Shown piece after piece: positions 173-32,347 of a DNA stretch of 64,000 nt (the stretch's first letter is position 1; the number at the start of each line of letters is the position of its first letter). This DNA comes from Seonamhaeicola algicola (GTDB lineage: Bacteria > Bacteroidota > Bacteroidia > Flavobacteriales > Flavobacteriaceae). The notes below the pieces were generated by a model. That model saw only the letters and a list, made by a program, of their open reading frames with translations, made no database searches and was not told where the DNA came from. The position numbers and the translations under genes were made by a program. The stretch lies in the NCBI RefSeq assembly GCF_007997385.1, contig NZ_VOSC01000019.1, positions 581,090 through 645,089 of the forward strand, written 5' to 3'.

Positions 173-1405
173 ATGATTTCAAAAGCACACATAATAAAGC
201 GTTTTAACAGTTATGTAACCATTGATACAGAATCTGACCCAAACTCTAAAACCACCCCTAGCACAGAAAAACAATGGAACTTAGCTAATAAACTTGTTGA
301 AGAATTAAAAGCTATTGGCATGCAAGATGTAACTATTGATGCTAATGCATACATTATGGCAACTTTACCAAGTAATGTAAACCATGATGTGCCAACTATT
401 GGATTTATTTCACATTTTGATACCTCTCCAGATTTTACAGGCGCTAATGTTAAACCTCAAATAATTGATAATTATGATGGAAAAGATATTGTTTTAAATG
501 AAGAAGAAAACATTGTTTTATCTCCTGATTATTTTGAAGATTTACTACAATACAAAGGCCAAACTTTAATTACTACCGATGGTACAACCCTTTTAGGAGC
601 CGATGATAAAGCAGGTATTTGCGAAATTGTTTCTGCCATGGAATATTTAATTAAACACCCCGAAATAAAACATGGTAAAATACGTATTGGCTTTACACCC
701 GATGAAGAAATTGGGCGCGGCGCTCATAAATTTGATGTTGAAAAATTTGGCGCAGATTGGGCTTACACCATGGATGGTAGCCAAATAGGAGAATTAGAAT
801 ACGAAAATTTTAATGCGGCAGGCGCTGTTGTAAAAGTAAAAGGTAAAATTGTACACCCTGGTTATGCCAAAGGAAAAATGGTAAATTCAATGTACATAGC
901 TACCGAATTTATAAACTCATTACCAAGATTAGAAACTCCAGAACATACCGATGGTTACCAAGGCTTTTTTCATTTGCATAATATAGAAGGTGATGTTGAA
1001 GAAACTAAGCTACATTATATAATAAGAGACCATGATAAAGAGCATTTTGAAGCCAGAAAAGAGGTTATGGTAAAACTTACAAATGAACTTAATACTCAAT
1101 ATGGTAAAGAAGTTATTATTACCGAAATAAAAGATCAGTACTATAATATGCGTGAAAAAATTGAACCCGTAATGCATATTGTTGCTATTGCTGAAGAAGC
1201 CATGAAACAACTAGATATAAAACCACTTATAAAAGCTATAAGAGGTGGCACAGATGGATCTCAATTAAGCTATATGGGGTTACCCTGCCCTAATATATTT
1301 GCTGGCGGACACAACTTTCACGGGCGCTATGAATATGTACCCGTTGAAAGTATTATTAAAGCAACACAAGTAATATGTAAAATAGCTGAACTTACTGCTA
1401 AATAA
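173..1405 (+). CDS. pepT: Peptidase T (tripeptide aminopeptidase)
   Basis: This is a cytoplasmic zinc aminopeptidase of family M20B that removes the N-terminal residue from tripeptides in the last steps of peptide breakdown. The 410-residue length is normal. Visible landmarks are the metal-binding stretch SHFDTSPD near residue 82, LGADDKAG near 142, the catalytic/metal Glu pair in TPDEEIGRG near 178, HPGYAKGK near 229, and the C-terminal GGTDGSQLS and [10 protein letters not shown] motifs. The ATG at 173 fits the family N-terminus and follows a -7 box at 129-136. It is a single-gene unit, divergent from pyrD and followed by 199 bases without a gene. Confidence 0.95.
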
Positions 1406-1604: not shown

Positions 1605-1940
1605 ATGAAAAACAAGGGTAATTTTTTATTAAAAAATTTAAAGGTTATAGCATTTGTAATAGTTTTTATGTTAAGCTTTGGCTCTAATGCCAATGCTGCA
1701 ACAAATGCGCCTTCAATGAACTTAACTTCTAACACGCTTACCATTTCTGCTCAAAACCCAACATTAACATGGGGTTTTGGTTGGTATTACAAATGGAAAA
1801 AGAAATGGTATAAGAAAAAGAAAAAGCAATGGCATAAAAAACCAAAACAACCTACAGATTCAGTTCCATTAGATGGAGGATTAGGTGTTTTACTTTTAGG
1901 CGCTACCGCTTTTGGAGTTAGAAAGCTTAGAAAAAATTAA
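1605..1940 (+). CDS. Small secreted Lys/Trp-rich protein with PID-CTERM-like sorting tail
   Basis: The 111-residue protein has three visible parts. Residues 1-32 form a signal peptide: basic start, hydrophobic VIAFVIVFMLSF, and a NANAA-like cleavage region. Residues 56-81 are extremely rich in Lys and Trp/Tyr (WYYKWKKKWYKKKKKQW) and would be strongly cationic. Residues 87-111 carry VPLDGGLG, a hydrophobic run and a basic end (RKLRKN), the layout of the PID-CTERM sorting signal that NCBI models describe in Bacteroidetes. Such tails are thought to be recognised by exosortase-like enzymes; none is encoded in this window. Function is unknown. It is a monocistronic unit ending at a strong hairpin (1967-2000). 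Binding to anionic polymers such as polysaccharide or DNA is speculation based on charge. Confidence 0.75.
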   Translation: MKNKGNFLLKNLKVIAFVIVFMLSFGSNANAATNAPSMNLTSNTLTISAQNPTLTWGFGWYYKWKKKWYKKKKKQWHKKPKQPTDSVPLDGGLGVLLLGATAFGVRKLRKN

Positions 1941-1966: not shown

Positions 1967-2000
1967 AAAAAAGGTCTCAATTTTAATTGAGACCTTTTTT
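1967..2000 (+). terminator. Rho-independent terminator after the PID-CTERM-like gene
   Basis: AAAAAAGGTCTCAA and TTGAGACCTTTTTT form a perfect stem of about 14 pairs around a short TTTTAA loop, with a T tract on the plus strand. It lies 26 bases after the stop codon. Confidence 0.85.
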
Positions 2001-31274: not shown

Positions 31275-32347
31275 GAAATGAGTTTAAAATAGTTTTCAAC
31301 CATATTTTTAATCGAAAAAGAATCTTCTATTGCAGTTCTAGTATTTATTTTTATTTGTTTTTCTCCAAGAAACACACTTTCAATTATATCTTTTAATTCT
31401 GAAATATCTCTTGCATTAAAAATATAACCATTTTCTTCATGCTTAACAGCTTCTTCATTTCCTCCAACATTAGTGGTTATTACGGGAACATTCGCTGCAA
31501 GACTTTCAAGAATTGATAGACTAAAACACTCCATATGCGTTGGTTGGAGCATGTAATCGTAAAGACAATACAGTTCATTAAGATTTGAAACACTTCCTTT
31601 AAAATTAAAGACAGTTTGTAATTTAAACTGACTTATCTTTTTCTTTAATTCAGATTCGTATGGGCCTTCTCCGTAAATATCTATTTTAAGATTTTCCTTT
31701 ATAGCATCTGAAAGCAGATTTACAGCATCTATTAAATCTTGTATACCTTTTGAAGCTCTTAAATGAGAGACCACCAAAAACTTTGGGTGTGTTATATTTC
31801 GTTTTAAATTGGGCTTAATATCATTAATAATAATACCATTATAAACAACCGAAGTTTTAGTTTTTAAATGGCTCCCAAAATCTTGTAATATTTCATTAGT
31901 AGTATATTTAGAAACCCCTATAAACTGGTCTATACACCTTGAAAACAACCAACCTTTCAAACGTTTTTTTAGGCGCTTTTTTACAGGGTAGCCACCCAAT
32001 GGTCTTGGGTTATGATCTACTGCTATAATTTTGGCCTCTGTTTTCTTTTTAAGTTGACAATAAAATGACGTACACAATTCTAAAAAATGAGTAAACACTA
32101 CATCATATTGCCCTTGAATAGTTTGCAGAACAAATGTTTCTAAAGCTATGTCTGCATCTGGAGAAATTATATTCAAAAATGAATAATCTCCTTGATTTGA
32201 AGTGTTAGGAAAGAACCACTGGATTTCTACATTGTTTTCTTTACACTTTTTATCAAAGGCCCAAAAAAAATAATCCATACCGCCTACCCTTTCAGGAAGC
32301 AATTTATAATTACATATTATTGCTATTTTCTTTGTATTTAAAGCCAT
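31271..32347 (-). CDS. Glycosyltransferase family 4
   Basis: A 358-residue GT4 enzyme. The N-terminal region reads IAIICNYKLLPERVGGMDYF and has KIIAVDHNPRPLGGYPVKKR; the donor half shows FLVVSHLRASKGIQDLIDAV, LKIDIYGEGPYESELKKK, FNFKGSVSNLNELY and MECFSLSILESLAANVPVITTN with the EX7E motif. The function is sugar transfer in polysaccharide assembly. It overlaps the GT4 gene downstream by 4 bases and the unusual 465-residue gene upstream by 10 bases. Confidence 0.9.
   Translation of the reverse strand: MALNTKKIAIICNYKLLPERVGGMDYFFWAFDKKCKENNVEIQWFFPNTSNQGDYSFLNIISPDADIALETFVLQTIQGQYDVVFTHFLELCTSFYCQLKKKTEAKIIAVDHNPRPLGGYPVKKRLKKRLKGWLFSRCIDQFIGVSKYTTNEILQDFGSHLKTKTSVVYNGIIINDIKPNLKRNITHPKFLVVSHLRASKGIQDLIDAVNLLSDAIKENLKIDIYGEGPYESELKKKISQFKLQTVFNFKGSVSNLNELYCLYDYMLQPTHMECFSLSILESLAANVPVITTNVGGNEEAVKHEENGYIFNARDISELKDIIESVFLGEKQIKINTRTAIEDSFSIKNMVENYFKLIS

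Follow-up and report, generated by a model that had tools for sequence, protein, structure and literature searches.

A Lys/Trp-rich mini-protein of Seonamhaeicola algicola as the probable dispersed substrate of a dedicated exosortase class with its own gene cassette and promoter

The window analysed here is a stretch of 64,000 nucleotides of Seonamhaeicola algicola DNA (genome G000 in our comparisons), and it carries at 1605-1940, on the forward strand, a gene for a protein of 111 residues, whose homologues, one of which is broken, occur in three further genomes of the genus. A signal peptide, clear by eye, takes up residues 1-31 (1605-1697, +), with cleavage proposed after Ala-Asn-Ala, and is followed by roughly 24 residues rich in Ser, Thr and Asn (32-55; 1698-1769, +) and by a block in which 12 of 27 residues are Lys, 5 Trp and 3 Tyr (residues 56-82; 1770-1850, +). 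The sorting tail (residues 85-111; 1857-1937, +) comprises a DSVPLDGG motif, a hydrophobic helix and a basic end, and is matched over residues 87-111 by the PID_CTERM model NF046080 at 40 bits, against a curated cut-off of 26. The Lys/Trp/Tyr block and the PID-CTERM tail proposed in an earlier, sequence-only reading are therefore confirmed, behind an apparent signal peptide, but the claim that it makes up almost the whole mature protein was an overstatement in view of the Ser/Thr/Asn-rich stretch before it. Scans with NCBIfam and Pfam found neither a PEP-CTERM model match nor a PEP motif in the mini-protein, whose motif reads PLDGG; the sole Pfam match, Peptidase_S49_N at E 0.14, was dismissed as chance. 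A hairpin followed by a T run at 1967-2000 (+) is a probable terminator (RNA fold -19.8 kcal/mol, z -5.1). The neighbours of the gene include a peptidase gene, a yajC-like gene and other ordinary genes; the M20-type peptidase gene at 173-1405 (+), which we take to be peptidase T-like, also precedes the homologue in genomes G003, G004 and G005 and provides a synteny marker for the mini-protein gene across the genus.

For comparison we used 42 relatives with the window-type tail, picked out of the loci compared here with a sequence pattern rather than as a census; some of them are close copies of one another (two pairs are tandem or near-copies, and one genus contributes several proteins), and the pattern omits variants such as the second G000 protein over the PID_CTERM cut-off, which is 101 residues long, rich in Lys, Gly and Asn, scores 34.9 bits and bears the motif APLDGG. 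It had been supposed that sorting-tail proteins are usually larger than the window protein; the 42 relatives measure 73-148 residues with a median of 108, and small size is normal for this type of tail. A sequence of the form D[ST][IVL]P stands before the tail motif in 29 of the 42 tails; most tails, including that of the window gene (1857-1868), have D-S-[IV]-P next to the DGG motif. Bacteroidota use D-[ST]-[AILMTV] as their motif for O-glycosylation, so that sugars might be attached at the supposed cleavage site, which we offer as a lead only.

Whether this genome encodes an exosortase-type gene was a question raised by the sequence-only reading, and G000 was found to have two: XrtF (236 bits), accompanied by a TIGR04127 partner, and a second enzyme, here called XL, encoded at C1:213205-213810. 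XL passes the general exosortase signature TIGR04178 (48.6 bits, cut-off 23) and falls below all the cut-offs of the named NCBIfam models, scoring 120 against 170 bits for XrtX, 61 against 90 for XrtF and 36 against 160 for XrtY. XrtX is thus the best-scoring named model; its entry NF046081 (cut-off 170 bits) gives 117-120 bits with three XL proteins from this family and 134 with that of G508. Exosortases are expected to have a conserved Cys, Arg and His, and these were found by pattern in the 16 XL proteins listed, except that the His pattern found no match in G130 and in G296 fell at another place. A second XL-like copy at G151:C6:167991-168530 has a TGA and a TAG within the match and is probably a decaying duplicate. 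In a tree of 40 exosortases, to which two extra XrtX rows were added and from which XrtF rows L115 and L145 were left out, a branch supported at 100/99 separates 21 XL proteins, that of G508 included, from XrtF, from XrtX and from a pair in G160 and G341, with long branches between the groups. Model scores and tree together suggest that XL is an exosortase clade claimed by none of NCBIfam's named models.

The distribution of tails and enzymes bears directly on which of the two exosortases handles the window protein. Across a phylum sample of 247 genomes, PID_CTERM was found in 42, all of them among the 77 with an exosortase match at 1e-5 (Fisher 2e-26). Within the family, 136 of 397 genomes match NF046080 at E <= 0.001 and 105 exceed its cut-off, while XrtF is over its own cut-off in 232. 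A profile of the genus copies (A1), with at most 10 candidates scored per genome, matches only 21 of the 397; a second exosortase match is likewise present in 21, and 19 of these are on the A1 list (Fisher 3e-28), an association whose counts are not independent because the genomes are related. The second exosortases of G160 and G341 are of a different kind, at about 60 bits to XL. The A1 matches in G028 and G064 were discounted, the former lying outside the tail and the latter having an XrtF-type tail. A direct search of 34 chosen genomes recovered XL at at least 229 bits in 20, namely 19 of the 397 and G005; all 19 have a window-type tail, and every one of them has XrtF too.

One alternative is that XrtF sorts the mini-protein and that the link with XL is incidental. 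XrtF and its TIGR04127 partner are indeed present in G000, XrtF-only genomes also have PID_CTERM matches, and xrtF mutants of F. johnsoniae are described as poor surface colonisers (PMC10936215). The window-type substrate, however, does not follow XrtF: against 232 of 397 genomes with XrtF, the tail is matched in 21, 19 of which have a second exosortase match, and it occurs only in XL genomes save for the two discounted matches. XrtF pairs instead with another protein. A Pro-rich mini-protein of 62-73 residues, whose motif is [FL]PIDGG or closely similar, is present, one per genome, in 14 of 14 XL genomes probed (in G000 at C30:295387-296052). In G000 the third PID_CTERM candidate is Pro-rich and 67 residues long, and scores 22.6 bits, just under the cut-off. 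Among 26 XrtF-only genomes probed, 21 were readable by pattern, and all 21 have a protein of 60-77 residues with P-I-D (the loci of both sets are L195-L234). The Pro-rich PID mini-protein is likely to be the XrtF substrate, and NF046080 lumps both kinds of tail, the window type and the Pro-rich PIDGG type.

The genus itself, represented by seven genomes with G000 included, indicates that substrate and enzyme are lost together. The mini-protein gene follows the same peptidase gene in four of them: G000, G004, G005 (as two tandem copies) and G003. The G003 copy (L012, minus strand, about 1500-1810) is broken by two TGA codons and one TAA within the match; by eye it has a frameshift near the start and little Lys in the middle, and its upstream region retains TCGAAA 45 nt before GCTATTA. 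G001, G002 and G006 have no mini-protein gene at the syntenic place and no strong match elsewhere in the genome. The genomes with XL are G000, G004 and G005; the search for it in G001, G002, G003 and G006 returned only XrtF-level matches of 22-34 bits. At the syntenic XL place the MBOAT and Lrp-type genes are 167 bp apart in G003 and 750 bp apart in G006, with neither XL nor its partner gene between them, and tblastn with XL and partner at the syntenic stretches gave no match in G002, G003 or G006 and a chance one in G001 (E 3.5). An intact substrate is accordingly found in three of three genus genomes with XL against none of four without, one of the four keeping the wreck, in a comparison of few and related genomes. 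The substrate gene is thus seen decaying in a genome where no XL was found, and, against the involvement of XrtF, both G002 and G003 have XrtF but no intact mini-protein gene.

Gene order ties the two more closely still. A window-type mini-gene lies directly 5' of XL on the same strand in 15 of the 20 XL genomes: in 11 (G127, G340, G213, G179, G139, G353, G181, G296, G327, G025 and G090) its end and the start of XL share 14 nt, in G169 the overlap is 26 nt with the start chosen, in G055 and G146 the mini-gene abuts an XL gene with a GTG start, and in G151 it adjoins an XL gene whose start is uncertain. In the remaining five (G000, G004, G005, G328 and G130) XL has no adjacent substrate. A conserved partner gene of about 135 codons lies 3' of XL, overlapping it in most cases (e.g. 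L173:10289-10693), and the alignment of its products (A2) has invariant W, H and QE-LISP positions. No NCBIfam match was obtained for the three partners scanned, nor a Pfam match for that of G000. The predicted structure comprises four long helices at a moderate confidence (pLDDT 75.6), a fold search with it returned no PDB match at E <= 0.001, and hhalign detected no homology with the XrtF partner when 20 sequences were compared with only 3 from the XrtF side. The order mini-gene, XL, partner recurs in G508, a genome from another family of the class. In G000, the genes beside XL include those for a sugar transferase, a PglD/FemAB-like protein, an MBOAT protein and a carbamoyltransferase, together with an AlgX-like match that is weak and fails to reach its cut-off.

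A further link is found upstream of the genes. The region before the window gene contains a conserved predicted transcript start, GCTATTAAT (1573-1581, +), a -7 promoter element of the form TAnnTTT(A/G), TACTTTTA (1561-1568, +), in aligned family columns -12 to -5, and TCGAATAAAA (1528-1537, +), a degenerate form (TCGAAT) of a TCGAAAA box that we propose as an activator site. From the box to GCTATTA is 45 nt, which is the spacing seen most often among the mini-genes, and a pattern fitted to its degenerate form occurs once in the 64 kb against 0.02 expected. Of the 160-nt upstreams of the 42 mini-genes, 30 contain TCGAAA, 27 contain GCTATTA and 22 contain both motifs, compared with 19, 7 and 0 among 480 other ORF upstreams; in shuffles the mean was 0.03 and the maximum 1. 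The start-to-start spacing of the two motifs is 44-46 in 13 genes, 55-56 in 8 and 63 in 1, giving two classes that differ by roughly one turn of the helix. Once the upstreams are aligned on GCTATTA (32 of 42 alignable), a TAnnTTT[AG] box appears at -12 to -5. Its position and its form both agree with a sigma-A -7 box that has been mapped in F. psychrophilum (PMC9723704), so that transcripts should start at GCTATTAAT.

When the upstream box and the -7 element are required together in one of the two phases, this strict pattern is found before 25 of the 42 mini-genes, being missing in 17, and before 7 of 478 other ORFs, three of which are themselves XL or substrate genes. Seven upstreams were set apart from the derivation: those of five solo XL genes, of the second G000 substrate and of the G003 wreck. 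A relaxed pattern (TCGA, 33 or 34 nt, TAnnTT), which was loosened with the upstreams of the solo exosortase genes already in view, matches six of the seven, the wreck being the misfit, and 5 of 445 others; the strict pattern matches three of the seven and 2 of 445 others. A sigma-70 scan gave promoter-like sites no more often than in shuffles, and a sigma-54 promoter, suggested by TTGCT before the ATG of several genes, was rejected because no GG was seen at the -24 distance in the upstream sequences inspected by eye. A further match to box and -7 element at window position 31312 (+) has no sorting-tail gene tied to it and may be chance. Among the upstreams of 35 XrtF-type genes, TCGAAA and GCTATTA each occur once and never together. 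The promoter pattern therefore appears to be common to the mini-genes, the window gene and the solo XL genes and absent from XrtF-type substrates, and the TCGAAAA box within it may bind an activator. Taken together, distribution, gene order and promoters favour XL over XrtF as the sorting enzyme, and we consider sorting by XrtF improbable. The same genomes appear to run two enzyme-substrate channels that differ in tail type, in partner and in promoter.

What lies between signal peptide and tail is far less constant than either. Pairwise identity among the four intact genus copies is 0.45 over the signal region (residues 1-33), 0.34 over residues 34-55 and 0.20 over the block (residues 56-84), against 0.81 over the tail. 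Looking for the block in homologues, as the sequence-only reading advised, we find its composition kept in all four of these copies (the window gene, one in G004, two in G005), with 23-37% Lys/Arg and 2-9 Trp in their middles, but not its sequence. Nor is it a conserved feature of the wider set: at least two Trp combined with at least 23% Lys plus Arg occur in only 8 of the 42 relatives, the four genus copies among them, and the contrast of four of four genus copies with four of 38 other relatives (p 0.0006) is uncorrected for kinship. At least two Trp are present in 19 of the 42 middles and at least three Cys in 14. Other substrate middles are Cys-rich, His-rich, Gly/Asn-rich or acidic, so that the Lys/Trp type is best seen as one flavour of a hypervariable middle. 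Net charge is positive in 31, negative in 7 and neutral in 4; middles thus range from basic to acidic (the XL-linked substrate of G508 is acidic by eye), and a cationic role cannot be general. The constant features of the class appear to be the tail and a short, mostly polar body that varies by lineage, and the Lys/Trp block is a lineage-specific trait of the intact copies of the genus.

Such variability also suits a drifting low-complexity spacer that shares a class function such as anchor spacing, its charge and Trp having no role, which we regard as a serious possibility though not the favoured one. The low identity of the block and a class that spans poly-Lys, Gly/Asn-rich and acidic bodies both fit a spacer, as does the preference of AT-rich DNA for Lys codons (the long ORFs of the window use AAA 1,288 times and AAG 277 times). 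Against it stand the Lys/Arg-rich, Trp-containing middles of every intact genus copy and the enrichment of Trp in middles at large (65 of 2,073 residues, p 3e-15; Trp makes up 1.0% of codons, 172 of 17,275, in the window's long ORFs). AAG is moreover over-used in three of the four genus copies (7 of 18, 8 of 21 and 23 of 29 Lys codons, with 4 of 17 in G004 and a background of 18%), which argues against mere poly-A slippage as the origin of the block. Release of the body as a cationic, Trp-rich antimicrobial peptide seems to us very improbable: its Trp/Lys composition resembles that of such peptides, most clearly in one G005 copy, but no immunity or export gene was recognised adjoining the mini-protein gene, and relatives with the same tail are Gly/Asn-rich, His-rich or acidic.

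The explanation that we consider probable is that the window gene encodes a dispersed substrate of the dedicated exosortase XL; its product would be made, exported and sorted to the envelope, where it may serve as a sticky cationic patch. The promoter common to XL and the mini-gene would drive expression; Sec would export the mini-protein, and the tail would hold it in the inner membrane. XL would then cut near DSVPLDGG and transfer the body, which is short, basic and aromatic, to a lipid or glycan acceptor in the envelope, where it could help to retain acidic polymer at the cell. The tail family, the enzyme class and its pairing with the substrate, the gene order, the joint loss and the shared promoter pattern have computational support. 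Cleavage, acceptor, surface location and polymer binding are steps that we infer, and in the published view the substrates of exosortases end up attached to the cell surface (PMC11980579). In the PEP-CTERM system of Aquincola, overexpression of PepA lowers soluble and raises bound exopolysaccharide (PMC9850573). With this precedent and the polysaccharide genes beside XL in G000, retention of acidic polymer at the cell is the likeliest role, although we would put it at slightly under an even chance. For the class as a whole we lean towards a self-contained cassette, consisting of a hypervariable mini-substrate overlapping the start of the enzyme gene, the exosortase and a new four-helix partner, with scattered extra substrates that keep tail and promoter and swap middles, and so would act as switchable surface coatings; the window gene would be a scattered, polycationic version. 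The larger finding beyond the block thus appears to be a dedicated enzyme class, a gene cassette and a promoter, and it offers a single short gene, a single enzyme and a single promoter box for direct tests.

The closest known system is that of PID-CTERM (NF046080) and XrtX (NF046081), in that the window tail is over the PID_CTERM cut-off and XrtX is the model closest to XL. We found no paper on PID-CTERM in the open literature searched. Among eight chosen exosortases from PID_CTERM genomes outside the family, seven are XrtX over its cut-off, and this, together with the neighbouring accession numbers, suggests XrtX as the accepted partner of PID-CTERM. XL differs from XrtX in its score (120 bits against 170), in forming a branch of its own and in having its own partner with no Pfam or NCBIfam match. 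The XrtF system (TIGR04128 with TIGR04127), encoded in the same genome as that of XL, resembles it in pairing an exosortase with a membrane partner, both of them small, but has a Pro-rich PIDGG substrate, another promoter and another branch of the tree. In F. johnsoniae, xrtF and its partner gene are important for biofilm and colonisation, and the same study leaves the substrates of flavobacterial exosortases to future work (PMC10936215). Finally, the XL class is like the PEP-CTERM floc systems typified by PepA of Aquincola in that a sorted-protein gene is under common control and the exosortase adjoins polysaccharide genes; the PepA promoter, in contrast, is of the sigma-54 type (-24/-12), whereas the XL family has a TAnnTTT -7 box and an upstream box.
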